Source: Verrucomicrobiota bacterium
GTDB lineage: Bacteria; Verrucomicrobiota; Verrucomicrobiia; Limisphaerales; J093
Length of the DNA: 64,000 nt
Assembly: GCA_027493615.1 (NCBI GenBank)
Contig: JAOSKK010000006.1
Location: 1-64,000 of the forward strand
Direction of reading: 5' to 3'
Positions 8,821-16,655 of this stretch are shown piece by piece. The position numbers were made by a program, and so were the translations under genes. The stretch's first letter is position 1. Each line of letters starts with the position of its first letter. The notes under the pieces are model-generated. The model made no database searches and was not told the origin of the DNA. It saw nothing but the letters and a program-made list of their open reading frames with translations.

Positions 8821-8897
8821 GCGTCCGTAGCTCAATTGGATAGAGCTTCTGACTTCGGATCAGAAGGTTGCAGGTTCGAGTCCTGCCGGACGCGCCA
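8821..8897 (+). tRNA. tRNA-Arg(UCG), canonical
   Basis: Acceptor GCGTCCG/CGGACGC, D-arm GCTC-AATTGGATA-GAGC with the normal GG, anticodon arm TCTGA-CTTCGGA-TCAGA (anticodon TCG), T-arm GCAGG-TTCGAGT-CCTGC, discriminator G and an encoded CCA. This is a conventional tRNA with U55 and G18G19. It lies on the opposite strand to the array and is the useful contrast for the array tRNAs. It may mark the edge of the island. Confidence 0.97.
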
Positions 8898-9183
8898 ATT
8901 CGTAAGTCACTGAACAACAGGAGCGTGCGACCGGTTCTCCAACCCGCTCGCCGGTCCGGCGCGGCTCCGCGAGCCACGGTCAGCATCTCCCCGGGAAAGC
9001 ACCCCGCCGGCGGCTCTCGCCAGGACGCGATTGCCGGCGGGTGGAGTCGACGAGCCGCGTGAAGCGGGGTTGCTCGGGCGCGAACCCAACGCGCTCTGTC
9101 CCGAGGCACCGCGAGGCACCTGTCACAGAAGACGCGCCAAGCCGCGCCCAACTGGGCGCGTGCTCGGTCGGTCTCTTGGGCCC
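8898..9183. other. Island edge: spacer with hairpins
   Basis: No gene seen. Contains the inverted repeats CGCGCCCA-ACT-GGGCGCG near 9144-9160 and TGGGCCC-TCAC-GGGCCCA at 9177-9194. The second overlaps the stop codon of the HNH-like ORF and could act as a terminator for the minus-strand array, although no T-tract follows. Confidence 0.4.
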
Positions 9184-9375
9184 TCACGGGCCCACAAACA
9201 ACTCCCAATCCCCGATGCGGTGGACGTTCCGAATGAGGGCCGTGGCAGGCAGTTCTTTCGGAACGCGGGGGGCGGCCAGGAGCTTCAAGCCAGCCTCCTG
9301 CGGCATGCGCACGTTGATCGCCTGCCAGTTGTGGTTGAGCACCACCACGGTCGCCTTGTTCAAGATGTCGCTCAT
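9184..9375 (-). CDS. 63-aa HNH-associated N-terminal-like fragment
   Basis: Starts MSDILNK and continues VVVLNHNWQAINVRMPQEA, which resembles the N-terminal strand-helix of some HNH-endonuclease family proteins (VLNRNWQAINVxTPAEA). No HNH zinc or catalytic block follows, so this is either a stand-alone small protein or a truncated gene. It is the last gene of the array on this strand. Start at 9375 because an upstream extension would run into tRNA-Gln. Confidence 0.45.
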   Translation of the reverse strand: MSDILNKATVVVLNHNWQAINVRMPQEAGLKLLAAPRVPKELPATALIRNVHRIGDWELFVGP

Positions 9376-9417
9376 CGCTTTGTCGCAGGTGTTTGATCTT
9401 TGCTGAATGGCGCGGAT

Positions 9418-9492
9418 TGGCTGCCTCGCCGGGACTCGCACCCAGACCTCCGGCTCCAGAAACCGGCGCACTGCTGGTTATGCCACGAGGCC
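9418..9492 (-). tRNA. Array tRNA-Gln(CUG)
   Basis: Anticodon arm CCGGT-TTCTGGA-GCCGG (CTG). D-loop AACCAGCA lacks GG. T-arm CTGGG-TGCGAGT-CCCGG has G at position 55. Acceptor GGCCTCG/CGAGGCA has a mismatched first pair; discriminator G and CCA are encoded. Confidence 0.8.
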
Positions 9493-9513
9493 GTTCGTGG
9501 TTCGCCGAGGGCG

Positions 9514-9590
9514 TGGTGGAGCTGGAGGGAGTTGCACCCTCACCCTGCCGGATTGAGAGTCCGGTGCCGGTCTGCTGTGGCTTCGACTCC
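9514..9590 (-). tRNA. Array tRNA-Glu(CUC), copy 1
   Basis: Anticodon arm CCGGA-CTCTCAA-TCCGG (CTC). T-arm GAGGG-TGCAACT-CCCTC with G55. Acceptor GGAGTCG/CAGCTCC has one mismatch and one wobble; discriminator A, CCA encoded. D-loop contains CAGCAG and no GG. Confidence 0.8.
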
Positions 9591-9597
9591 GTGACAC

Positions 9598-9681
9598 TGG
9601 TGGGCGAGAGAGGACTTGCACCTCCAAGGCTGCCTGATTCTGAGTCAGGTGGGTCTGCTATTCCCCGTGAACCACGCGCCG
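9598..9681 (-). tRNA. Array tRNA-like, anticodon CAG (Leu?)
   Basis: Anticodon arm CCTGA-CTCAGAA-TCAGG is perfect and CAG reads Leu codon CUG, but the variable region is short, whereas leucine tRNAs normally have a long arm. The D-arm is irregular, with an enlarged loop containing TAGCAG, and the acceptor pairs at only five of seven positions. T-arm GGAGG-TGCAAGT-CCTCT (G55), discriminator A, CCA encoded. Possibly decaying. Confidence 0.55.
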
Positions 9682-9686
9682 AAAAG

Positions 9687-9764
9687 TGGCGTCCCTGGCC
9701 GGCTTCGCTCCGGCGATCTCCTGCTTGAGAAGCAGGCGTGTTGGCTGGACTACACCACAGGGAC
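9687..9764 (-). tRNA. Array tRNA-Glu(CUC), copy 2
   Basis: Very well-formed: acceptor GTCCCTG/CAGGGAC, D-stem GTGT/ACAC with loop AGTCCAGCCA, anticodon arm CCTGC-TTCTCAA-GCAGG, T-arm GCCGG-AGCGAAG-CCGGC (A54, G55), discriminator G, CCA encoded. Same anticodon as the gene at 9514-9590 but a different body, so not a recent duplicate. Confidence 0.88.
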
Positions 9765-9765
9765 G

Positions 9766-9880
9766 GAAAGGATCAAACCCCTGGCCGGTCTCTTCCACCG
9801 GCTCACACCCAACGCCTCCCAAAGTCCAGGACTGGCGGGAAAGGGCTGGGCCGCTGGAGCTGTTTCGCGTTCAGGGCTTC
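9766..9880 (-). tRNA. Degenerate tRNA-like remnant
   Basis: A possible T-stem GCCGG/CCGGC and an acceptor AGCCCTG/CAGGGGT (six of seven pairs) can be drawn, with a D-stem CGC/GCG, but no acceptable anticodon arm and no CCA. Its size fits a damaged long-variable-arm tRNA. No anticodon assigned. Confidence 0.25.
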
Positions 9881-9884
9881 GAAA

Positions 9885-9976
9885 TGGTGCGCGCGTCCGG
9901 TAACGCTCCGGAACCCGGCAGTGATCCAGTGCGATGCGGGGTGTAGGCCCGCCGGTTCTCTTTGAACTACGCGCGC
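9885..9976 (-). tRNA. Array tRNA-Val(UAC), enlarged variable region
   Basis: Acceptor GCGCGCG/CGCGCGC, D-stem GTTC/GAAC with only a five-base loop AAAGA, anticodon arm GCGGG-CCTACAC-CCCGC (TAC; position 33 is C, not the usual U). About 23 nt separate the anticodon arm from the T-arm TCCGG-AGCGTTA-CCGGA, unusual for valine. Discriminator A, CCA encoded. Confidence 0.65.
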
Positions 9977-9996
9977 TGATGGCCGTCTGCAAAGAC

Positions 9997-10086
9997 CGGA
10001 ATGCCGTGGACTTGCACCACACTCCCCGGTTCGAGGAGCGCACTGGTTAGCACCCAGGCCCGGCTCGCTGGTCCGGATGACATTCC
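9997..10086 (-). tRNA. Array tRNA-Ser(GCU), long variable arm
   Basis: Anticodon arm around GTGCTAA (GCT, U33 present) with stem CTGG/CCAG, and a long variable arm with CTCC pairing to GGAG, as expected for serine. D-stem TCCG/CGGG. T-arm TGTGG-TGCAAGT-CCACG (G55). Acceptor GGAATGT/GCATTCC, discriminator G as in serine tRNAs. CCA is not encoded. Confidence 0.75.
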
Positions 10087-10096
10087 AAGAAACCGG

Positions 10097-10171
10097 TCCG
10101 CGTGGCAGGAGTTGCACCTGCAACCTCCCCGTCTTGAGCGGGGCGCCTCGTTCTGGTTGGGCTACACGCGG
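10097..10171 (-). tRNA. Array tRNA-Leu(CAA), short variable loop
   Basis: Acceptor CCGCGTG/CACGCGG, anticodon arm CCCCG-CTCAAGA-CGGGG (CAA), T-arm GCAGG-TGCAACT-CCTGC (G55), D-loop with AACCAGAAC. The variable loop is only about five bases, so the body is class I although the anticodon is leucine. Followed by CCG rather than CCA. Confidence 0.7.
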
Positions 10172-10172
10172 A

Positions 10173-10247
10173 TGGTGCCCACGGTCGGACTTGCACCGAC
10201 ACTGGGCGGGTTTTAAGTGCGCCGTCTCTGCGTTGGACTACGTGGGC
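10173..10247 (-). tRNA. Array tRNA, anticodon UAA (Leu), short variable loop
   Basis: Acceptor GCCCACG/CGTGGGC, T-arm GTCGG-TGCAAGT-CCGAC (G55), discriminator A and CCA encoded. Loop CTTAAAA gives TAA, but the two upper pairs of the anticodon stem are mismatched (GCGCA/CCCGC). Class I body, unusual for leucine. Confidence 0.65.
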
Positions 10248-10267
10248 TGCTGGCGCAGCGCCAACAT

Positions 10268-10360
10268 TGGTGCCGCGTGGAGGATTCGCACCCTGGACGC
10301 CGTTCGCCAGGACCCTTCCCGTTCTGAGCGGAATGCCTCTGCTGGTTGGGCTAACGCGGG
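10268..10360 (-). tRNA. Array tRNA-Leu(CAG), long variable arm
   Basis: Anticodon arm TTCCG-CTCAGAA-CGGGA (CAG). The long variable region contains CCTGG and CCAGG, which can pair, as expected for class II leucine tRNA. T-arm CAGGG-TGCGAAT-CCTCC is weak in the outer pairs. Acceptor CCCGCGT/ACGCGGC pairs six of seven; discriminator A, CCA encoded. Confidence 0.75.
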
Positions 10361-10380
10361 TCCTGGCGGACTGTCAACAT

Positions 10381-10456
10381 TGGCACTCCCGGCAGGACTC
10401 TCACCTGCACCTCCGACGTTCGAAGCGTCGCGCTCTGGTGATTAAGCTACGGGAGC
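10381..10456 (-). tRNA. Array tRNA-Arg(UCG)
   Basis: Clean cloverleaf: acceptor GCTCCCG/CGGGAGT, D-stem GCTT/GAGC with loop AATCACCA, anticodon arm CGACG-CTTCGAA-CGTCG (TCG), T-arm GCAGG-TGAGAGT-CCTGC (G55, A56), discriminator G, CCA encoded. Duplicates the anticodon of the flanking canonical tRNA-Arg with an array-type elbow. Confidence 0.88.
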
Positions 10457-10558
10457 GGAAAAGTAAGAGGGCAGAACCAGAAGGCAGAGGCACACACGCC
10501 GCTTCAAGGCAGCGGGTCCTCTCCACTATTCTTCAATCTGACTTCTCCCCCTCAAGAC

Positions 10559-10646
10559 TGGGGCCAGCGGAGGGACTCGCACCCTCGTGGGGCATGATGC
10601 CCGGCAGTTTACGAAACTGCGGCTGTCGCTGCTGAGCCACGCCGGC
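10559..10646 (-). tRNA. Array tRNA with anticodon CGU (Thr) and long variable arm
   Basis: Acceptor GCCGGCG/CGCTGGC, anticodon arm GCAGT-TTCGTAA-ACTGC (CGT), T-arm GAGGG-TGCGAGT-CCCTC (G55). The variable arm is a clear hairpin, GGGCA-TCA-TGCCC, making this a class II body, which threonine tRNAs do not have. Discriminator C, CCA encoded. Identity is therefore uncertain. Confidence 0.75.
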
Positions 10647-10694
10647 GAAATTCGCTGCGCGAATTTCGATGATTCTCCCGCGCAGCGGGAGAAT
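10646..10694. repeat. Paired hairpins with complementary loops, set 1
   Basis: Two adjacent perfect hairpins: CGAAATTCG-CTGCG-CGAATTTCG (10646-10668) and ATTCTCCCG-CGCAG-CGGGAGAAT (10672-10694). The stems differ but the five-base loops CTGCG and CGCAG are complementary, so a kissing interaction is possible. A second set with the same loops is at 12452-12523. Confidence 0.8.
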
Positions 10695-10765
10695 GGTCGC
10701 AGCCGACGGTAACGCTCCGTCCGGGCCTCGCTTATGATGCGTGGCGGCTCACTTGAGCGGCTGCG
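10694..10765 (-). tRNA. Array tRNA-Met/Ile2(CAU)
   Basis: Acceptor CGCAGCC/GGCTGCG, D-stem GCTC/GAGC with a four-base loop AAGT, loop ATCATAA (CAT) on stem CACGC/GCGAG with one mismatch, T-arm GACGG-AGCGTTA-CCGTC (A54, G55). Discriminator A, CCA encoded. A paired C1-G72 argues against an initiator. CAU could also be a lysidine-dependent Ile2. Confidence 0.7.
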
Positions 10766-11856
10766 TGCGGAAGCAATGGAGACCCGTACTGGAGTCGCAC
10801 CAGTCTCTGCGGTGTTGCAGACCGCCGCCTGAGCTGCTCGGCCAACGGGACAGAATCGAAGGCGCGAGCGGGTGCGCATGGCACCCGCCCGCGTGTGTTC
10901 ACCATGTTCACCACAAGTTTCGCGGCGTCGCTGAACGGCTGGATCAAGCCCAGGGAAGTCACCTTGCCCAGGTTGCGGATCATGGCCGTCATCGGCATGC
11001 GTTGCAGCAGCGCGTCCCAAATGTCCGGCTCGTTGAGCCACTGAGTTGGGATGGCCTCACGCGGCAGATCATGCTCGGTGATCAGCTTCACAATCTCAGC
11101 CTTGCTCGATGCCTTCTTGGCCTGTTCGAAGGCGACGATGAGCGCCGGCAATTCGCCGGCGGCGGCGTACTGCGCCGCACGAGGCTCACCGTTCACGCGC
11201 CGGGTCACCGTGCGTTCGCCGAGGCCATCCGCGCCGGACAGAATCCAACGGAAGATGGCCTCGTGATCACGGCTGGGCGCCTTTGGGTGGGCCAGACGGA
11301 GCAGGTCGCCGTGCGACCAGCGATCCCGTTGCTGGTACTTCACGACCTGGAGGGCCAGATCGTCGGCCTCGCGGCCAACGTACCAGCGGCCCACGGCGTT
11401 GCGCAGGCCCCGACCCCAACCGCGCAGAGCATTGACGTACTCGGCGAAGTGGAACAGATGCGTGCCGATGCGGCAGACCTTGTTCAGGCTCTGGAAGGCC
11501 AGGGCCTTGGCAGCCGGATCGCCGTGTGCCGCCACCAACGCCAGGGCGAAGATGGCCGGGTCGTTCTTGGGCGCGCGGCCGCTGGCGCCGATCTCGACGA
11601 TGCGGTTCACCGCCCGCACGCCATCGGCCTGGATGCAGCGGACCAGGGCGTCGTCGTTTTCCTTCACCAGGTCGCATTCGCCGATGTCGTAGGTGCCGCC
11701 CTCGGCGCCGAGGATCAGGAACCGGTCAAGCCGGGTCCAGTCATCGACCTGCCAGGCGTAGCCGCCGGCCGAGTTGGGCACCTGAGTCGAGCAGGGGATG
11801 GGCTCCGACTGCGGGGTGGTGCGACGGTGGAACAGACGGGCGTAGTTGATGGCCAT
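10732..11856 (-). CDS. TROVE/Ro60-type RNA-binding protein lacking the vWA domain
   Basis: 374 aa from ATG 11856, preceded by AAAGGAGG seven bases upstream. The N-terminus matches Ro60/Rsr proteins closely: MAINYARLFHRRTTPQSEPI, QVPNSAGGYAW, DRFLILGAEGGTY, then VEIGASGRAPKNDPAIFALA, covering the HEAT-like RNA-binding ring. In the family this ring holds misfolded RNA 3' ends and Y RNA and is followed by a von Willebrand A domain with a DxSxS MIDAS. Here similarity stops after SDAAKLVVNMVNTRG. From about residue 336 the frame simply reads through the same-strand tRNA-Cys gene and into tRNA-Met. So the vWA domain is absent and the last ~40 residues are tRNA sequence in translation. A GCGGGTGC/GCACCCGC hairpin sits at the break point. 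Probably a truncation, possibly still RNA-binding. Confidence 0.85.
   Translation of the reverse strand: MAINYARLFHRRTTPQSEPIPCSTQVPNSAGGYAWQVDDWTRLDRFLILGAEGGTYDIGECDLVKENDDALVRCIQADGVRAVNRIVEIGASGRAPKNDPAIFALALVAAHGDPAAKALAFQSLNKVCRIGTHLFHFAEYVNALRGWGRGLRNAVGRWYVGREADDLALQVVKYQQRDRWSHGDLLRLAHPKAPSRDHEAIFRWILSGADGLGERTVTRRVNGEPRAAQYAAAGELPALIVAFEQAKKASSKAEIVKLITEHDLPREAIPTQWLNEPDIWDALLQRMPMTAMIRNLGKVTSLGLIQPFSDAAKLVVNMVNTRGRVPCAPARAFDSVPLAEQLRRRSATPQRLVRLQYGSPLLPHAAAQVSRHAS
10777..10851 (-). tRNA. Array tRNA-Cys(GCA)
   Basis: D-stem GCC/GGC with loop containing AGCAGC, anticodon arm GCGGT-CTGCAAC-ACCGC (GCA), T-arm ACTGG-TGCGACT-CCAGT (G55), acceptor GTCCCGT/ACGGGTC with one T-T mismatch, discriminator T (U73, the cysteine identity base), CCA encoded. 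Lies inside the 3' end of the TROVE reading frame. Confidence 0.85.
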
Positions 11857-12062
11857 AGGGCCTCCTTTCATCCTGGGTGTGCCGCCAACTCTCGGCACCG
11901 TTGGCTGGATTGACCTGCGGACAAGTTGGTGAGCGTGGGGTTGCTTCGTGCCATAGACGGTAACCCATGCTCTTCGGCCCGCAGAGAGCGTTGCTGACTA
12001 TTCCCGGAAAGAAGTGGTTCCTTCGGGCGCCTTCGAATCGTCCGGAGCGCAGGCAGCAGGCC
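11857..12062 (-). other. Noncoding leader between SEC-C ORF and TROVE gene
   Basis: About 205 nt without a gene. Contains the hairpin GCCAAC/GTTGGC just upstream of the TROVE ribosome site and a GGTCAATCC segment resembling a T-loop. In other bacteria Y RNAs are encoded next to Ro60 genes, so this is the most natural place to look for one, but I could not fold a convincing Y RNA by eye. Confidence 0.3.
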
Positions 12063-12245
12063 TTAAAAGCTGCGTCCCGAGCCGCAGGGACAGAGGTCGT
12101 TGCGACCCAACTTCTCGCTCAGCTCTTTGTTCCCATGTACCACGCGGACGCCGCGCCTGACTTGCGTTTCGGACGGGAATCCTCGCCGGCGTTTACTGGT
12201 GATCTCGAACCTGGAGTCTTCACCATCGTGCATGCTGGGTGTCAT
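12063..12245 (-). CDS. SEC-C zinc-motif mini-protein
   Basis: 60 aa from ATG 12245 with GGAGG four bases upstream. The C-terminus, [15 protein letters not shown], is a SEC-C motif (CPCGSG), a small zinc knuckle first known from the end of SecA and found in many short or RNA/protein-binding proteins. The usual motif ends with a further Cys-His or Cys-Cys pair, but here a TAA follows RSF immediately, so the zinc site is incomplete. The remainder ([20 protein letters not shown]) is basic. Function unknown; its position inside the array suggests a link to tRNA or RNA handling. Confidence 0.6.
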
Positions 12246-12278
12246 ACGACCTCCGGGTTGACGGTTGCGGTTGAACGG

Positions 12279-12300
12279 TCGCGGCACTCGCCGCGACCAG
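12279..12300. repeat. Perfect hairpin between array elements
   Basis: GGTCGCGGC-ACTC-GCCGCGACC, nine perfect pairs and a four-base loop, directly upstream of the SEC-C ORF on the minus strand. No T-tract. Confidence 0.6.
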
Positions 12301-12314
12301 GAAGAAGATGGGCA

Positions 12315-12385
12315 AGGGACTGCCGTGGAATGACTCCTTGCGGAGGCTGCTCTACCATTGAGCTACGTCGGGTGCTGGCGCACGG
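12315..12385 (-). tRNA. tRNA-like remnant with canonical D-arm
   Basis: The D-arm GTAGCTCAATGGTAGAGC is of the ordinary bacterial type with GG, unlike the rest of the array. It is followed not by a seven-base anticodon loop but by CTCC-GCAA-GGAG, a GNRA-tetraloop hairpin. The T-arm and acceptor cannot be completed. Either a decayed tRNA or an anticodon-less tRNA-like RNA. Confidence 0.35.
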
Positions 12386-12399
12386 CCAACAAGTCGCCG

Positions 12400-12455
12400 G
12401 CGATTGGACTTGAACCAATAACAAGCGATAACCCACGAACTTCGGCCCATCGTCT
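12400..12455 (-). tRNA. 3' half of a canonical-type tRNA
   Basis: T-arm ATTGG-TTCAAGT-CCAAT with normal U55 and a following CGCCGGC-G acceptor half, but no matching 5' half: the upstream sequence is taken up by the hairpin set at 12452-12523. No anticodon assigned and no CCA. Confidence 0.35.
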
Positions 12456-12523
12456 TTCGTGCTGCGCACGAAAGACCAGGCGGCGCCTCGGCGCCGCACG
12501 ATCTTTCCGCGCAGCGGAAAGAT
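12452..12523. repeat. Paired hairpins with complementary loops, set 2
   Basis: Three adjacent hairpins: GTCTTTCGTG-CTGCG-CACGAAAGAC (12452-12476), GCGGCGC-CTCG-GCGCCGC (12480-12497 region) and ATCTTTCCG-CGCAG-CGGAAAGAT (12501-12523). The outer two repeat the CTGCG and CGCAG loops of set 1 on unrelated stems. Confidence 0.8.
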
Positions 12524-12598
12524 GGGGTGACCAACCGGATTTGCACCGGCGCCGATGCCGTCACAGGGCATAATGCTGCTGTTACACCATGGCCACCA
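12523..12598 (-). tRNA. Array tRNA-His(GUG)
   Basis: Anticodon arm ATGCC-CTGTGAC-GGCAT (GTG). Acceptor GTGGCCA/TGGTCAC with discriminator C and a G at the -1 position, the two histidine identity elements. D-loop AACAGCA, T-arm GCCGG-TGCAAAT-CCGGT (G55), CCA encoded. Confidence 0.9.
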
Positions 12599-12605
12599 TG
12601 AAAAC

Positions 12606-12682
12606 TGGCGCTCCCACGTGGATTTGCACCACGAACCTCCGGCTTCGCAAACCGGCGTGCAGTCTGATTGCACCTTGAGAGC
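12606..12682 (-). tRNA. Array tRNA-Arg(GCG)
   Basis: Acceptor GCTCTCA/TGGGAGC, D-stem GTGC/GCAC with loop AATCAGACT, anticodon arm CCGGT-TTGCGAA-GCCGG (GCG; bacteria usually read these codons with ICG), T-arm CGTGG-TGCAAAT-CCACG (G55), discriminator G, CCA encoded. Confidence 0.87.
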
Positions 12683-12683
12683 G

Positions 12684-12761
12684 TGGCGTCCGTGGCCGGA
12701 CTCGCACCGGCTAGGGCCGGCTTGAAGGGCCGGGCGCTCGGGCTGCTTTGCATTCACGGAC
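12684..12761 (-). tRNA. Array tRNA-Glu(UUC)
   Basis: Acceptor GTCCGTG/CACGGAC, anticodon arm CCGGC-CCTTCAA-GCCGG (TTC; C at position 33), T-arm GCCGG-TGCGAGT-CCGGC (G55), discriminator G, CCA encoded. D-arm irregular with AAGCAGC. One base from tRNA-Arg(GCG), and its 5' end overlaps the rtcB stop codon. Confidence 0.78.
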
Positions 12762-13932
12762 GGTTATCGAAATCCGGAGTGCGACGCCACGACCCGGCGG
12801 GCACTCCGGATTTCGATCGAGTCTTGTACGTCAACACCGGTCGGAGCGTTGCGATCACGCGAATCAACCCGGCGTTTACCAACGCCTCGATGACCGACTC
12901 GACCGGTTTGTACGCCATCGGTGCCTCCTCGTAGAGCAGGTCGCGGTCTTCGCAGATCACGCGGCTGCCCAGCGACGTCTGCACCAGTTCCGACACCCGG
13001 AACCGTTCACGGACACGGAGACGCGTTTCGCTCCGCGCCCATTTGCGTCCAGCGCCGTGCGCCAGGGACCAAGCGTGGGAGGCCCCGTCGCCGACCGGTT
13101 TCACGACGTAGCTCAAAGCGCCACGCGAGCTGGGGATCACCAGTGGGCCGGCTTCGGCCACCACGGCGCCCTTGCGGTGGAGCCAAGCGGTTCCGCCTTC
13201 GGCTTCGAGCGGCAGGATGCTGTTGTGGCAGCCGTCCCAGACGGACTGACCGTCAGCGCCGAGTGCATCGAGAAACCGTCGAGGGATGAGTTCGCGGTTG
13301 GCCTGTGCCCAGCGCAACGCGAGATTGTGCTGCGCCAGATAGATGGCTCCCACGGCCGACTCGGGATCAATCCCGTCAGCGCCGTGTTCGGCTGCATGAG
13401 CACGGAAGATGGACTCGCCGTAATCGCGCGAGCCGCTGTGAACCAGCAGAACCAGATTAGCCTTGGTCAGGCCGAAGGCGGCGAGTTCGGTGGAATCGTA
13501 GACCGCTTCGACGGCCTGGAGTTCGGCGAAGTGGTTGCCACCGCCCAGGGTCCCCATCGAGGCCTCGAACGGCGAAGAGGCCAGACGATTGTCCTGCAGC
13601 CACCCGCCGAGGTTGCCGTCCCACCGCGTCTCCAGGTTGAAAGGCAACTTCGTCCACCGATCGACCTTCGCCTTCCGAAGCGGCAGGTCCGTCTGCCACA
13701 GCGTCATACCGCAGCCGATGTCCCCGCCGATCAGGTGCGGGTAGATCACACCTTCGGTGACAAACGCGGCGCCGACCGGCACGCCCTTGCCGGGGTGAAG
13801 GTCGGGGAAGCCGACCGCTTGTCGCACCCCGTCGAGGCGGGCACAGGCGTAGAGTTGGCGCACGGCTTCGCCTTCGATCCACGCGCCCGGCGAAGCGATG
13901 AGGCGCACGGGAGCTTCAAGGGTCGTGTTCAT
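12754..13932 (-). CDS. rtcB: RtcB-type RNA ligase
   Basis: 392 aa. Joins 2',3'-cyclic phosphate (or 3'-phosphate) and 5'-OH RNA ends with GTP and Mn2+, repairing cleaved tRNAs. Family signatures are present in order: GFPDLHPGKGVPVG at 41-54, GGDIGCGM at 69-76 (Mn-binding Asp and Cys), GGGNHFAE at 130-137, HSGSR at 165-169 and HGAGR at 292-296, whose His is the guanylylated residue by homology. Start ATG 13932 (MNTTLEAP) is chosen because a longer frame would run into tRNA-Phe. The family end is around LRPVLTYKT; here about 23 more residues are encoded through a 17-bp inverted repeat, and the stop lies inside tRNA-Glu. In many bacteria rtcB neighbours a Ro60 gene, as here; no RtcA or RtcR is seen. 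Confidence 0.95.
   Translation of the reverse strand: MNTTLEAPVRLIASPGAWIEGEAVRQLYACARLDGVRQAVGFPDLHPGKGVPVGAAFVTEGVIYPHLIGGDIGCGMTLWQTDLPLRKAKVDRWTKLPFNLETRWDGNLGGWLQDNRLASSPFEASMGTLGGGNHFAELQAVEAVYDSTELAAFGLTKANLVLLVHSGSRDYGESIFRAHAAEHGADGIDPESAVGAIYLAQHNLALRWAQANRELIPRRFLDALGADGQSVWDGCHNSILPLEAEGGTAWLHRKGAVVAEAGPLVIPSSRGALSYVVKPVGDGASHAWSLAHGAGRKWARSETRLRVRERFRVSELVQTSLGSRVICEDRDLLYEEAPMAYKPVESVIEALVNAGLIRVIATLRPVLTYKTRSKSGVPAGSWRRTPDFDNRP
12766..12817. repeat. 17-bp perfect inverted repeat at the 3' end of rtcB
   Basis: Arms 12766-12782 and 12801-12817 (ATCGAAATCCGGAGTGC and its exact complement) around an 18-nt GC-rich spacer. It lies inside the reading frame after the conserved RtcB end. 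No T-tract, so more likely an RNA processing or stability hairpin than a factor-independent terminator. Confidence 0.8.
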
Positions 13933-13980
13933 GGTGGTCGGGAGCGGATACGGAGCGCCTCCGGGGGCGTCCCAAAGGAA

Positions 13981-14056
13981 TGGCCACTGGAGTCGGAATC
14001 GCACCGACACCTCCTGGGCTTCAGCCAGGCGTGCAGACTGCCTACACCATCCAGTG
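13981..14056 (-). tRNA. Array tRNA-Phe(GAA)
   Basis: Acceptor CACTGGA/TCCAGTG, D-stem GTGT/GCAC with loop AGGCAGTCT, anticodon arm CCTGG-CTGAAGC-CCAGG (GAA), T-arm GTCGG-TGCGATT-CCGAC (G55), discriminator G, CCA encoded. Confidence 0.9.
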
Positions 14057-14063
14057 GAACAAA

Positions 14064-14137
14064 TGGTCGTCCCGCGTGGTAACGCTCCACGGTCTTCCGG
14101 TTATCAGCCGGGCGCTCTGCTTTTGAGCTACGGGACG
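14064..14137 (-). tRNA. Array tRNA-Ile(GAU)
   Basis: Acceptor CGTCCCG/CGGGACG, D-arm GCTC-AAAAGCA-GAGC, anticodon loop CTGATAA (GAT) on a stem with one outer mismatch, T-arm CGTGG-AGCGTTA-CCACG (A54, G55), discriminator A, CCA encoded. Confidence 0.87.
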
Positions 14138-14146
14138 GGAAAGTGG

Positions 14147-14179
14147 ATCGGGAGGCGCTCGTGAGGAACGCCTCCCGAT
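14147..14179 (-). terminator. Strong hairpin after the 276-aa gene
   Basis: 11-bp perfect stem (ATCGGGAGGCG and complement) with an 11-base loop, starting 8 nt after the stop of the 276-aa gene. Only a short CTTTCCC follows on the minus strand, so termination would be weak; it may separate mRNA from the downstream tRNAs by processing. Confidence 0.5.
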
Positions 14180-14187
14180 GATTGAGT

Positions 14188-15018
14188 TCAATCGAGGAAT
14201 GCCACGTTGGCCATTGTGCGGCTCTGAGTCTCGGTGTTCATGAGCACCCGGTGCCAGAACGGCAACGTGATGGTCGCATGGTCGGTGTGACGCACCGTGC
14301 CGCGGGCATACACCCCGGCGTCACGCACCATCACCCGCCACCCCAGGCGGGCACGCTCGGGTCGCTCGCGCACGTACTGCTGGTATTCCTTTTCGGTCAA
14401 ACCGTTAGGGAACTGCCGGCAGACATACACCTTCGTGCCGCCCACCCGGGACAACTCCTGCACGAGGTGGGGCTTGCCCCGACCGCGACGGATGGGTTCG
14501 TTGTGCAGCACCCGGACCGGGTCAACGACCAGGTCAGGGGCGGGAACGAAGAACCACTCGCCCTGGCGACGGAACGCCGGGTTGCGCCGACGATTCCGTT
14601 GGCGGTTATCCAGACCTTCACGGGCCTGGGCCACCTGCACCTCGGCGGGCTTGAGCGATTCCATCGCGTCGGCCACGTTCGAGACGCGACCGGGCACCGC
14701 CGCGACGAACCAATGACGTTCGTCATGGCCGCAGAGGAAACGGTCCGTCTGCGGTTGGTCGGCGACCTTGCGGGCCAGCAGGAGCAGATGTTGCTGTTCC
14801 GGCTTGGCGTTGAGGACGGAGAAGTCCACGGCCTCGGCCAGATGGGTGGGCAGGCGGAGTTCAAAGAACTCGCCGTGACGATCTCGTTGGATGTCGATGG
14901 CGTAATCCTTCGGACTCAACCAATGCCGGTCGCCCTGCTGCCAGCGCGAGGGGATGGCGCGCACTTTCAGACGTGCGCCCATGGCAGCGAACTTCGATTC
15001 AATGTGTTCAAGTTTCAT
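14188..15018 (-). CDS. Array protein of unknown function, 276 aa
   Basis: I do not recognise the family. The protein is soluble with no signal or membrane segment. It has a charged N-terminus (MKLEHIESKFAAMGARLKVR), a segment FFELRLPTHLAEAVDFSVLN, a DERHWFVAAVPGR stretch and a basic middle (NRQRNRRRNPAFRRQGEW) that would suit RNA binding. Its start codon overlaps the stop of the 49-aa ORF upstream in an ATGAAACTTGA arrangement, so translation is probably coupled. Codon use and GC match the neighbours. Its place among tRNAs and rtcB suggests a role in tRNA or RNA maintenance; that is inference only. Confidence 0.8.
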   Translation of the reverse strand: MKLEHIESKFAAMGARLKVRAIPSRWQQGDRHWLSPKDYAIDIQRDRHGEFFELRLPTHLAEAVDFSVLNAKPEQQHLLLLARKVADQPQTDRFLCGHDERHWFVAAVPGRVSNVADAMESLKPAEVQVAQAREGLDNRQRNRRRNPAFRRQGEWFFVPAPDLVVDPVRVLHNEPIRRGRGKPHLVQELSRVGGTKVYVCRQFPNGLTEKEYQQYVRERPERARLGWRVMVRDAGVYARGTVRHTDHATITLPFWHRVLMNTETQSRTMANVAFLD

Positions 15019-15157
15019 ACTGGATACGGATCGGACCGGCGCGACTCGGGCGGAACTTAACCGCCAGACCGCGCTGTCCGGGTTTGAGTCTGGCGTTCAG
15101 TTTGAACACCCTTCGGACGAGTAACTGGCTTTGGAGTCGGATGATGGACTTGAGCAT
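15008..15157 (-). CDS. Coupled 49-aa basic ORF
   Basis: Starts MLKSIIRLQSQLLVRRVFK and ends GPIRIQYET, with 11 Lys/Arg. An AAAGGA ribosome site lies 6 bases before the ATG. The last codons overlap the start of the 276-aa gene by 11 bases, the classic geometry of translational coupling. No family recognised; candidate nucleic-acid-binding peptide or leader for the next gene. Confidence 0.6.
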   Translation of the reverse strand: MLKSIIRLQSQLLVRRVFKLNARLKPGQRGLAVKFRPSRAGPIRIQYET

Positions 15158-15188
15158 GGCGTTCCTTTCGTTGGAGGTTCCTGATTAG

Positions 15189-15275
15189 CGGAAGGCGCGG
15201 GTAATGCTCCCGCCTCGGCTCGCGCCGATCCTGTTTTCGGGACAGGTGCAGCCAGCTTGGATCTGCCTGCCTTCC
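15189..15275 (-). tRNA. Array tRNA-Ser(CGA), long variable arm
   Basis: Acceptor GGAAGGC/GCCTTCC, D-stem GCAG/CTGC, anticodon arm CCTGT-CCCGAAA-ACAGG (CGA; C33), variable arm TCGGC-GCGA-GCCGA, T-arm GCGGG-AGCATTA-CCCGC (A54, G55), discriminator G as expected for serine. Followed by CTA, so CCA is not encoded. Confidence 0.88.
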
Positions 15276-15281
15276 GAGGAT

Positions 15282-15358
15282 TGGCGGACCCGATGGGACT
15301 TGCACCCACAGCCTTCCCGCAGACAACGGGTTGCTCCGCTCATTTGAGCTACGGGTCC
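15282..15358 (-). tRNA. Array tRNA-Asp(GUC)
   Basis: Acceptor GGACCCG/CGGGTCC, D-arm GCTC-AAATGAGCG-GAGC, loop TTGTCTG (GTC) on stem CCCG/CGGG, T-arm GTGGG-TGCAAGT-CCCAT (G55), discriminator G as in aspartate tRNAs, CCA encoded. Confidence 0.88.
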
Positions 15359-15361
15359 AAT

Positions 15362-15436
15362 TGGTGGAGTCGGCGGGTAACGCTCCCGCATGGGCCTGCT
15401 TGCAGGGCAGGTGCATTGCTTGTCTGCCACGACCCC
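15362..15436 (-). tRNA. Array tRNA-Ala(UGC) with G3-U70
   Basis: Acceptor GGGGTCG/CGACTCC places G3 opposite U70, the alanine identity pair, with discriminator A. Anticodon arm CCTGC-CCTGCAA-GCAGG (TGC; C33). D-stem GCA/TGC with loop GACAAGCAA, T-arm GCGGG-AGCGTTA-CCCGC (A54, G55), CCA encoded. Keeping G3-U70 argues for selection on aminoacylation. Confidence 0.88.
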
Positions 15437-15449
15437 AAAGTGGCAAGCC

Positions 15450-15485
15450 GTTCGGGTGCTGCCCCCGACCGGCAGAGTTTTGGAG
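15450..15485. repeat. Stable hairpin between tRNA-Ala and tRNA-Gly
   Basis: GCCG-x-TCGGG and CCCGA-x-CGGC around a GGCAGCA loop, nine pairs with one internal mismatch. Likely an intergenic processing hairpin. Confidence 0.45.
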
Positions 15486-15522
15486 ACTCCACCGCACGCT
15501 GGTGCCCGGCTTGTCTGGAAAT

Positions 15523-15596
15523 TGGTGCGGCTGCCGGGAATCGCACCCGGACCTTCTCCCTGGCAAGAAGACGTTCTGCTGCTAAACCACAGCCGC
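15523..15596 (-). tRNA. Array tRNA-Gly(GCC), first tRNA of the array
   Basis: Acceptor GCGGCTG/CAGCCGC, D-arm GTTT-AGCAGCA-GAAC, anticodon arm TCTTC-TTGCCAG-GGAGA (GCC), T-arm CCGGG-TGCGATT-CCCGG (G55), discriminator A (glycine tRNAs usually have U), CCA encoded. Confidence 0.87.
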
Positions 15597-15609
15597 GGAA
15601 ATTGAAAGG

Positions 15610-15643
15610 GCCGGGAGCACGTTGTCCGCACTCCCGGCCCGCG
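15610..15643. repeat. Hairpin upstream of tRNA-Gly
   Basis: GGGCCGGGAG and CTCCCGGCCC, ten perfect pairs around a 13-base loop. A second hairpin, CCGGTGGG-GTGTG-CCCGCCGG on the minus strand, lies near 15791-15815. Both sit in the ~350-nt leader of the array. Confidence 0.6.
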
Positions 15644-16655
15644 CCATTTCAACAAAGATCAAACACCACTTGGTGATCTCTCGATCCCAACCCGCGGTTT
15701 CACGGCGGTTGTTTCGGTGTTTACGGGCACACCTCCTTGGAAGCCCTTTGACTGTAAATCCAGGCCAAACTCACACGACGTGCTGGATGGCGACCGGCGG
15801 GCACACCCCACCGGCGGAGAACCTCGGCTCTCCCACGTCCTAATCCGTGTTGGCATCTCGGACATCAGCTAGATGTCGCGTCTTGTCTCACTCACCATCC
15901 CGGTCCTTTCGTTGAATGATTTCGGTTTCGCTGGTGCATAGGGGAAAACAAAAAACCCCGCTCACCATCGGTAAGCAGGGCTGAGAAATCGTGGTCCTCG
16001 CTGGACGCTCGATACCTGCTTACCTTCGTCGACCCGGCCGGGGGTTGTGTCCCTGGCCTTGATCGGAACTAAGGCGGAACACATAACCGCTCGACCATTC
16101 ACGACGTGTCGCTCGCGCGACTATCGTCGTCGGTCTCTTCGCGGCTAGAATGTTCATGCAGGCTCGCATCGAATGTGGGAGATGTTTAGCATAGGGCGCT
16201 GGTTACAGTCCACTTATACTTTCGGAGGGAGGGTCATCTTGAATCAGAATATGCGGATGGATCAATTTGTGAGGAGGCAGGCTGGTCGATCAGGTGCGGC
16301 TGGTTGGCGAAGGCCACCTCCCGTTCACCGTGGCGGCTTGCTTACCGTGCCCGATGCCGAAGACACGTCCGCACGCCCGCGTGCCGGACGCAAGCTCCGA
16401 TCCCGCTTTTGGCTTCGCAGCGCCCGCATTGACGCCGTAACGACGTTCATTGAACCCTGAAGCCTGAAACGAAGGGCACTCCTTTTCGCCGACGCGAGTG
16501 ATCGATGCACCGCACGAGGTTGCAGCGCCGGTTTCGCGACTGGGCATGGTAGCCGAGGCGGTTCCTTCCCGCGGCTCGGCCCCAAACACGACTTGACAGC
16601 CACCACACCGGGATGGCGACACTCCGCGCGAACTCCTTTCCTCCAGCGACAGGCC
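15644..16655. other. Array leader and island edge, no gene seen
   Basis: About 1 kb without a convincing coding gene. It holds the structured minus-strand leader (separate entry), a GACATC/GATGTC hairpin near 15861-15877 and, beyond 16200, unremarkable sequence leading to the esterase gene. A minus-strand TATAAG at about 16210-16220 could be part of a promoter but lacks a good -35 box. Confidence 0.5.
15945..16124 (-). promoter_or_regulatory. Attenuator-like structured leader of the tRNA array
   Basis: On the minus strand, segment B (15980-15970, CCCTGCTTACC) pairs with segment C (15966-15956, GGTGAGCGGGG) to form an 11-bp terminator with a GAT loop followed by TTTTTTGTTTT (15955-15945). The same segment B is also perfectly complementary over ten bases to upstream segment A (16024-16015, GGTAAGCAGG). 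A:B and B:C exclude each other, the layout of a transcription attenuator. Upstream of A is a long stem-loop (16083-16046) with TGTGTTCC/GGGACACA and GCCTT/AAGGC. No known riboswitch or T-box consensus was recognised. What senses the switch is unknown. Confidence 0.65.

Follow-up and report, generated by a model that had tools for sequence, protein, structure and literature searches.

The 64,000-nucleotide stretch analyzed here, called the window below, comprises positions 1 to 64,000 of contig JAOSKK010000006.1 from a Verrucomicrobiota bacterium (GenBank assembly GCA_027493615.1). Between 9388 and 15667, its minus strand carries an array in which tRNA genes are interleaved with genes for an RtcB RNA ligase, a Ro60 protein, and a 276-amino-acid (aa) protein and with two Y RNA candidates, all on the same strand. 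A first-pass annotation of the sequence had reported that the tRNAs of this array have an altered elbow, with G at T-loop position 55 and D-loops that nearly all lack G18G19. In ordinary tRNAs, the T-loop is described as reading U54-U55-C56, with U55 made into pseudouridine (Psi), and Psi55 is called universally conserved (excerpts of PMC4810234; similarly PMC7912444). The same excerpts present the G18-Psi55 and G19-C56 contacts as near-invariant and as recognition features for the ribosome, RNase P, modification enzymes, and T-boxes (PMC4810234, PMC7912444).

The tRNAs on the minus strand of 9418-15596 were called by ARAGORN, by Rfam model RF00005 at its gathering score, and by a custom finder whose score takes in stem pairing, the letters of the anticodon loop, U8, the length of the variable loop, and CCA but disregards the letters of the T- and D-loops. 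T-arms were also located by a loop-blind grammar (GG-7nt-CC-11nt-CCA). The resulting tRNAs and T-arms were as follows.

9418..9492, minus: tRNA-Gln(CUG), T-loop TGCGAGT, D-loop AACCAGCA; ARAGORN, Rfam, finder
9517..9590, minus: tRNA, anticodon CUC in this parse, T-loop TGCAACT, D-loop CAGCAGAC; Rfam, finder
9598..9681, minus: tRNA-Leu(CAG)-like, T-loop TGCAAGT, anticodon assigned by eye; weak Rfam match (23.1 bits, below gathering)
9687..9764, minus: tRNA-Glu(CUC), T-loop AGCGAAG, D-loop AGTCCAGCCA; ARAGORN, Rfam, finder
9885..9976, minus: tRNA-Val(UAC), T-loop AGCGTTA; ARAGORN
9997..10086, minus: tRNA-Ser(GCU)-like, T-loop TGCAAGT, without CCA; finder
10095..10171, minus: tRNA-Leu(CAA), short variable loop, T-loop TGCAACT; ARAGORN, Rfam, finder
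10173..10247, minus: tRNA-Leu(UAA), T-loop TGCAAGT; ARAGORN, Rfam
10268..10292, minus: T-arm, acceptor 3' strand, and CCA of a poorly folding tRNA, T-loop TGCGAAT; loop-blind grammar
10381..10456, minus: tRNA-Arg(UCG), T-loop TGAGAGT, D-loop AATCACCA, 19-56 = C-A; ARAGORN, Rfam, finder
10559..10646, minus: tRNA-Thr(CGU), long variable arm, T-loop TGCGAGT; ARAGORN, Rfam, finder
10694..10718, minus: T-arm and CCA of a tRNA-like gene, T-loop AGCGTTA; loop-blind grammar
10777..10851, minus: tRNA-Cys(GCA), U73, T-loop TGCGACT; ARAGORN, Rfam, finder
12523..12596, minus: tRNA-His(GUG), G-1 and C73, T-loop TGCAAAT; ARAGORN, Rfam, finder
12606..12682, minus: tRNA-Arg(GCG), T-loop TGCAAAT, D-loop AATCAGACT; Rfam, finder
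12684..12761, minus: tRNA-Glu(UUC), C33, T-loop TGCGAGT; finder
13981..14056, minus: tRNA-Phe(GAA), T-loop TGCGATT; ARAGORN, Rfam, finder
14064..14137, minus: tRNA-Ile(GAU), T-loop AGCGTTA, D-loop AAAAGCA; ARAGORN, Rfam, finder
15189..15275, minus: tRNA-Ser(CGA), long variable arm, C33, T-loop AGCATTA; finder
15282..15358, minus: tRNA-Asp(GUC), G73, T-loop TGCAAGT; ARAGORN, Rfam, finder
15362..15436, minus: tRNA-Ala(UGC), G3:U70, A73, C33, T-loop AGCGTTA; finder
15441..15465, minus: T-arm and CCA of a tRNA-like gene, T-loop GGCAGCA; loop-blind grammar
15523..15596, minus: tRNA-Gly(GCC), the array's first tRNA, T-loop TGCGATT, D-loop AGCAGCA; ARAGORN, Rfam, finder

ARAGORN found 13 array tRNA genes, RF00005 found 14 above gathering, and the custom finder found 17, for a union of 19; position 2 of the T-loop, which corresponds to position 55, was G in 19/19. 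The loop-blind grammar matched 20 sites in the array, again with G55 in 20/20, and four of these (9598, 10268, 10694, and 15441) lay beyond the 19 genes. The window thus holds 23 T-arms (19 genes plus four extra), with G55 in 23/23 and U55 in 0/23. The earlier tally of 15 TGC, 6 AGC, and 1 TGAGAGT loops was correct, and the one T-arm that it had overlooked, GGCAGCA at 15441, likewise has G55 and brings the count from 22 to 23. A cloverleaf with stems of 7/4/5/5 bp was parsed for 17 of the window tRNAs, 15 of which encode the 3' CCA. The 17 parsed D-loops agreed with the description given before: 16 contain AG, one contains AC, and GG is absent from the usual 18-19 position in all of them. Gene-finding programs can miss some tRNAs of this type, as the 13 of 19 window genes found by ARAGORN illustrate.

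Among the tRNAs found in this genome, those of the array alone deviate. Rfam identified 45 tRNA genes or remnants elsewhere, and all have U55: the 38 that could be parsed combine U55 with GG, and the seven unparsed ones all read TTC, four of them being complete genes with GG. The flanking tRNA-Arg(UCG) at 8821, outside the array, has the fully canonical elbow attributed to it, as parsed by the custom finder. Alternative folds that restore U55 were ruled out, since a finder blind to T- and D-loop letters gave G55 in 17/17 window calls, and pseudogene decay was ruled out by paired T-stems, identity letters, and conservation. Non-tRNA T-loops often have G at the second position, so that G55 need not break the loop fold.

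Related arrays were sought by searching the window RtcB against one genome per bacterial and archaeal species and keeping the best 80 loci. Among 90 loci examined, an array was defined as at least three tRNAs in which position 55 is not T, and 27 loci, including the window, were kept. Loci with one or two non-T55 tRNAs (L038, L042, L047, and L156) or with a single U55 tRNA were dropped, as were tRNAs on the opposite strand or out of the span at kept loci (one each in L026, a canonical tRNA-Phe, and L028). Identical tRNAs were merged before distinct counts, pair tests, and identity-letter counts. The 27 loci had G55 in 340/343 tRNAs (328/331 distinct), and their hosts were Verrucomicrobia, relatives of the window genome, or one metagenome-assembled genome without a stated phylum. 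A cluster of only U55 tRNAs was seen at none of the 90 loci, and six RtcB loci outside arrays had one U55 tRNA each (L037, L040, L053, L056, L093, and L103). Such arrays were not found near RtcB of Myxococcota, Desulfobacterota, Planctomycetota, and others in flanks of up to 10 kb.

When 387 genomes of the phylum were scanned with a T-arm pattern, 85 had matches, in most cases one or two, as with a reversed-pattern control; clustered matches occurred in other families of the same class. Nine regions (L168-L176) were selected by this G55 pattern, and their G55 share (120 of 125 tRNAs) is therefore not independent of selection; six of the nine had a distant RtcB (24-30% identity) within the fetched 19 kb, and Pfam confirmed the two that were scanned. 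Over all 36 loci, window included, G55 was present in 448/456 distinct tRNAs and CCA was encoded in 438/456. The D-loops of the 448 G55 tRNAs contained AG without GG in 369 cases, AG and GG in 14, GG alone in 2, and neither in 63.

Since G55 is nearly fixed in the Verrucomicrobiota arrays (448/456), covariation of positions 18 and 55 was read in mixed viral arrays. Two T-arm patterns were run over IMG/VR, and all viral counts given here are among the matches listed. The custom finder parsed 1456 tRNAs, 1322 of them distinct, in 238 fetched stretches. Distinct viral tRNAs with U55 (n = 860) had D-loops with GG alone in 694 cases, GG and AG in 111, AG alone in 15, and neither in 40, for a GG total of 805. 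Those with G55 (n = 431) had AG alone in 377 cases, both in 27, GG alone in 1, and neither in 26, and those with C55 (n = 31) had GG alone in 25. This association was not built in, because contigs were picked by T-loop and not by D-loop; the G55 share among them is not a prevalence, because they were chosen by a G55 T-arm pattern. In 90 mixed stretches, 918 of 1004 tRNAs obeyed the rule of U55 with GG or G55 with AG alone, compared with 653 +/- 12 (maximum, 693) in 1000 within-stretch shuffles of position 55.

Descent was allowed for by matched pairs of tRNAs that share an anticodon, have a similarity of 78% or more outside the loops, and carry opposite states at position 55. In 37 of 41 such pairs, GG changed to no GG, and 32 of these changed to AG alone; the GG state was unchanged in 69 of 71 U55-U55 control pairs. 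Because the matched pairs extend across 22 anticodons (15 amino acids), the switch looks to have been repeated many times, with both letters changing together. The first-pass annotation had proposed that the 18-55 contact covaried and that homologous arrays would tell. In these arrays, no fold restored U55 or G18G19, variation was not random, and the sequence comparisons support a joint change of positions 18 and 55.

At least one contig is plainly of phage origin: L275, with G55 in 20/20 tRNAs, has portal and head maturation protease genes. A PHROGs scan of 20 proteins from six G55-rich contigs left 12 without a match, and similarity searches of L275 against phages and of L029, a Verrucomicrobiota array, against plasmids gave no match. 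The IMG/VR contig L242 has G55 in 27/28 tRNAs, and its tRNA-Lys(CUU) and that of L029 share 98% identity outside the loops; this likeness could reflect either recent phage-host exchange or host DNA in the viral set. A transfer-messenger RNA lies within the G55-rich viral array L312 (7094-7530).

In ordinary tRNA, G19 pairs with C56. The first-pass annotation had taken this pair to stay G-C, and most array tRNAs agree: C56 is found in 386 of the 448 G55 array tRNAs, with AG present in 370 of the 386. The pair is not always G-C, and it varies in ways that are partly compensated. AG was present in 6 of the 53 G55 array tRNAs with A56 or G56 and in 7 of the 9 with U56. Close relatives of tRNA-Gly(GCC) carry AACAGCA with C56 or AACAACA with U56; close relatives of tRNA-Leu(CAG), and likewise of tRNA-Arg(UCU), carry AG with C56 or AC with G56; and tRNA-Val(UAC) isoacceptors carry AATAGCA with C56 and AAAATGA with A56. 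Exceptions include the window tRNA-Arg(UCG) (C-A), a tRNA-Ile of L027 (G-G), and a tRNA-Lys of L028 (G-U). A fixed-index test on the 62 G55 array tRNAs with non-C56 gave 23 Watson-Crick pairs (p = 0.08) and is weak because D-loop lengths vary. An index-free test was stronger: it found A plus the complement of position 56 in 406/448, compared with 341 +/- 4 in shuffles (maximum, 358), a comparison from which relatedness was not removed. Together, these comparisons suggest that 19-56 covaries, with exceptions.

The swap of T54-A58 to A54-U58 that had been read as part of the same change fared differently. Swapped loops (A54...U58) do exist, but they form an independent loop class that also accompanies U55 in phage tRNAs (ATCGTTA), and A54/U58/A60 was found in 20/860 U55 viral tRNAs. 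T54...A58 was kept in 315/448 G55 array tRNAs. Elsewhere in the core, A8 with U14 (versus U8 with A14) occurred in 29/456 array tRNAs as a possible compensated pair, and A8-A14 occurred in 67, which speaks against a simple 8-14 rule. Examples of isoacceptors with C33 were as follows: Leu(GAG), 9/9; Ala(UGC), 9/14; Glu(UUC), 9/23; Val(UAC), 7/12; and Gly(GCC), 7/15.

Identity letters matched the anticodons, so that the array RNAs look like working tRNAs at the level of sequence. G3:U70 was present in 18/18 array tRNA-Ala and in 1/438 other array tRNAs, and G-1:C73 was present in 9/11 tRNA-His and in 0/445 others. U73 was found in 18/18 tRNA-Cys, G73 in 18/18 tRNA-Asp and 16/16 tRNA-Asn, and C1:G72 with A73 in 20/20 tRNA-Pro, and 15 of 17 tRNA-Ser had a long arm.

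The remaining features of the array were the following.

9388..9407, plus: boundary motif GGTGTTTGATCTTTGCTGAA, inverted copy beyond the array's last tRNA
10732..11898, minus: Ro60/Rsr (TROVE) gene, PF05731, C-terminally short, end overlapping tRNA-Cys
11915..11984, minus: Y1, a Y RNA candidate forming a conserved hairpin immediately upstream of Ro60, RF01656 at 38.3 bits (gathering, 38)
12307..12452, minus: YrlA-like Y RNA candidate Y2, RF02553 at 28.5 bits, E 0.0064 (gathering of 69 not reached)
12754..14010, minus: RtcB RNA ligase, NCBI PrfH-associated subfamily TIGR03073 / NF007153
14188..15018, minus: predicted open reading frame for the 276-aa protein, present in six related array loci, one a partial match
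15648..15667, minus: boundary motif GGTGTTTGATCTTTGTTGAA, before the array's first tRNA

Its predicted genes mark the array as an RNA-repair operon of the Ro60/Y RNA/RtcB kind. The DIGCG, GNHF, HSGSR, and HGAGRK blocks of the window RtcB align to solved RtcB chains. An RtcB-PrfH ribosome rescue pair was considered and rejected because the three TIGR03072 matches in the genome (assembly 80.8% complete) all fall below the cut-off for PrfH. The same 80.8% complete genome gave no PF01137 match for an RtcA cyclase. A second, different RtcB is encoded elsewhere in the genome (G000:C38:844190-845269), with no tRNA in the surrounding 4 kb that was fetched. The window Ro60 scored 205.7 bits against the Rsr model (cut-off, 900), and its missing C-terminal piece (vWA region) was not found in 9001-16000; the vWA part is present in the Ro60 of the related locus L029. 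The TROVE family was detected in 12 of 58 genomes, window genome included. The 276-aa protein had no Pfam or NCBIfam match, and its predicted model was weak, with a predicted local distance difference test score (pLDDT) of 60.6, and had no PDB fold match at E <= 0.001. Of 7999 candidates scored for its family, 7044 were homologues at E <= 0.001, Verrucomicrobia subdivision 3 proteins among them, and a CGHDER block was invariant across 42 aligned sequences.

The two Y RNA candidates, both a short way upstream of the Ro60 gene, provide the contrast within the operon. Y1 matched RF01656, a nematode family that we take to be of the Y RNA kind; 15 copies from 15 loci fold alike, and for 5 of the 19 pairs one or more sequences carry changes in both partners. 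Y2 was common to eight loci with a shared closing stem, and its elbow module is canonical (T-loop TTCAAGT, D-loop AATGGTA). A search for the Y RNA core motif (GGGCCGAAG...GGGTT), which sets no T-arm condition, covered the array loci and L156 and gave 24 matches: 15 Y1 hairpins and 9 with a tRNA-like T-arm. All nine tRNA-like Y RNAs had a TTC T-arm (TGC in 0/9), eight reading TTCRANN and the ninth TTCATAT, and eight of nine had GG in the D-arm, the exception being L152 (AATGATA). L029 carries a second YrlA-like RNA (11396-11570) in one array, with a canonical D-arm, GCTCAATTGGCAGAGC, and a T-arm read by eye as TTCATAT. A 2016 review of RNA repair systems reportedly names a tRNA-like RNA. Since the Y RNAs of the array operons keep TTC and GG, canonical elbows are not lacking there; it is the Y RNA that has them, and the tRNAs do without.

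The array is flanked by a 20-nt motif, GGTGTTTG(A/T)TCTTTGTTGAA, as an inverted pair, and these are the only two copies in the 7.6-Mb genome at up to two mismatches. At up to three mismatches, at least one copy was found at 21 of 35 other array loci, in both orientations at 11 of these, and in none of the nine loci L168-L176. L037, L038, and L040-L042, which have no large array, likewise carry the motif upstream of RtcB. It may represent either the ends of a mobile element or a transcription element. A GC-rich hairpin (15598-15650) lies between the 5' boundary motif and the first tRNA, and a hairpin likewise adjoins a variant of the motif in the viral contig L242.

Several known systems resemble parts of this arrangement. 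The Salmonella rsr-yrlBA-rtcBA operon likewise joins a Ro60 orthologue, Y RNAs including the tRNA-like YrlA, and RtcB (PMC7790460). It responds to tRNA fragments, and its authors suggest that the tRNA-like part of YrlA may compete for an anticodon nuclease (PMC7790460). The available text mentions no tRNA array (PMC7790460). The window genome lacks an RtcA match, and the window Ro60 is truncated. The Anabaena PCC 7120 trn operon (26 tRNA genes) is, like the array, a surplus multi-isoacceptor set tied to RtcB, in that case by regulation: a single factor, TrcR, represses both rtcB and the tRNA operon, and translation stress releases them (PMC10272220). There, however, rtcB is a separate chromosomal gene, and the text available to us mentions no Ro60 or Y RNA link (PMC10272220). 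Phage tRNA arrays that evade tRNA-cutting defenses are similarly thought, in the portion of PMC10264068 available, to be spare sets that replace destroyed tRNAs. Those arrays have anticodon-loop changes in particular tRNAs (PMC10264068), whereas the window array has a changed elbow in all; the terms T-loop, D-loop, and elbow are absent from the main text of PMC10264068.

Mycobacterium phage MrMagoo resembles the array in having 21 annotated multi-isoacceptor tRNAs with RtcB 0.8 kb from the last tRNA, but it has U55 in 13/13 parsed tRNAs; a GOLLD RNA lies in its tRNA region (L418 8278-8695). The non-proteinogenic tRNA-Gly of Staphylococcus has a TGC T-loop and lacks G18G19. It differs in comprising a few isoacceptors for one amino acid, used for cell-wall synthesis (excerpts of PMC9976931). 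The first-pass annotation knew of no described tRNA set like that of the window, and the literature searched, with most subscription journals lying outside its coverage, likewise yielded no account of tRNA sets that combine G55 with A18. The second elbow form would be what is new here, and tRNA arrays within RNA-repair operons would be of a known kind.

We give about even chances to the explanation that the array is a spare set of ~23 tRNAs, likely a replacement supply for times when ordinary tRNAs are damaged, and likely able to evade enzymes that recognize the elbow. U55 has become G and, in nearly all D-loops, G18 has become A; A18 and G55 would meet in the fold, and their contact would stand in for G18-Psi55. 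Without U at position 55, the array tRNAs could not receive Psi55 from TruB, which the host genome encodes, and they would be passed over by enzymes or toxins that recognize the canonical T-Psi-C elbow. A precedent for such an enzyme is CdiA-CT E479, a tRNase described as cutting between the conserved T and Psi of the T-loop (excerpts of PMC9086364). The YrlA-like RNA, with its canonical elbow, may serve as bait for such enzymes, and RtcB would reseal broken RNAs. The change lies in the elbow and is shared by all isoacceptors, so the pressure should concern tRNAs as a whole class; its source would be either an enzyme recognizing the T-Psi-C elbow or a requirement that folding proceed without Psi55.

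A number of observations weigh against a replacement set that escapes such enzymes. U55 and G55 tRNAs are mixed in 90 viral contigs, a pattern that strict evasion of an elbow nuclease would not lead one to expect. In the stretches taken from eleven public phage and plasmid records (StAB, CcrRogue, DSS3_MAL1, MrMagoo, LR745206, LR756502, Moab, MT835505, Phosso, pMPPla107, and G54a; nine reached via similarity to viral loci, Phosso via a match to the window, and MrMagoo by accession), 101 parsed tRNAs had U55 in 100 cases, C55 in 1, and G55 in 0, so that phage arrays in general do not share the trait. The window Ro60 is truncated and matches residues 2-365 alone of a 608-aa relative. A8 is present in 109/456 array tRNAs and C33 replaces U33 in 84/456, which could mean relaxed selection. 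The long variable arm is absent in 27 of 37 array tRNA-Leu, and G18:U55 and G19-C56 are reported to matter for leucine identity in E. coli tRNA-Leu (excerpts of PMC9976931).

The mixed viral arrays are better accounted for by a modification-free elbow, in which A18-G55 would be intrinsically stable and fold without Psi55, Gm18, and T54, the gain being fast bulk maturation in stress or phage infection and not escape. Such a gain would apply alike to every isoacceptor, and it is in keeping with the retention of T54...A58 in just 315/448 G55 array tRNAs and with a host TruB that is present and could not make Psi55 in them. U55 nevertheless suffices for the other tRNAs of the genome and for most of the viral tRNAs parsed, and we regard this explanation as unlikely. 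The elbow contrast with the Y RNAs favors evasion plus bait, and the mixed viral arrays favor this rival. The same contrast bears on neutral compensatory drift, whereby the elbows of redundant mobile-element tRNAs would wander between about equal G18-U55 and A18-G55 states with no gain. Other tertiary contacts do vary with partial compensation (19-56 and some 8-14), mixed arrays exist, and C33 is common, all of which drift would accommodate. But the arrays found via RtcB/Ro60, and not via their loops, are nearly fixed for G55 (328/331 distinct tRNAs at 27 loci), whereas the tRNA-like Y RNA in these operons has kept a canonical elbow; one would not expect drift to fix one state and spare its neighbor, and we consider it improbable.

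Least probable, in our estimate, is that the array RNAs do not serve translation at all and act as Ro60 or nuclease baits, as guides, or as dedicated amino-acid donors comparable to the staphylococcal tRNA-Gly. They do have Ro60 and Y RNAs as neighbors, ordinary function would be impaired by C33 and by the short arms of the Leu tRNAs, and the staphylococcal cell-wall tRNA-Gly is described as specialized to escape EF-Tu (excerpts of PMC9976931). Discriminators and identity letters matched to the anticodons of many amino acids would, however, have no role in a pure bait; a donor role needs no set covering most amino acids; and the Y RNA with its canonical elbow is already the better bait.

Beyond the window, we offer more tentatively the possibility that A18/G55 is a second form of the tRNA elbow, carried as entire isoacceptor sets in Verrucomicrobiota repair operons and in phages, that is invisible to elbow-reading enzymes, with the old-elbow Y RNA as bait. 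The paired switch points to an attacker of, or a constraint on, tRNA as a class and not single anticodons, and a natural 18-55 switch repeated many times, together with 19-56 covariation, provides a ready experiment on the purpose of the elbow.

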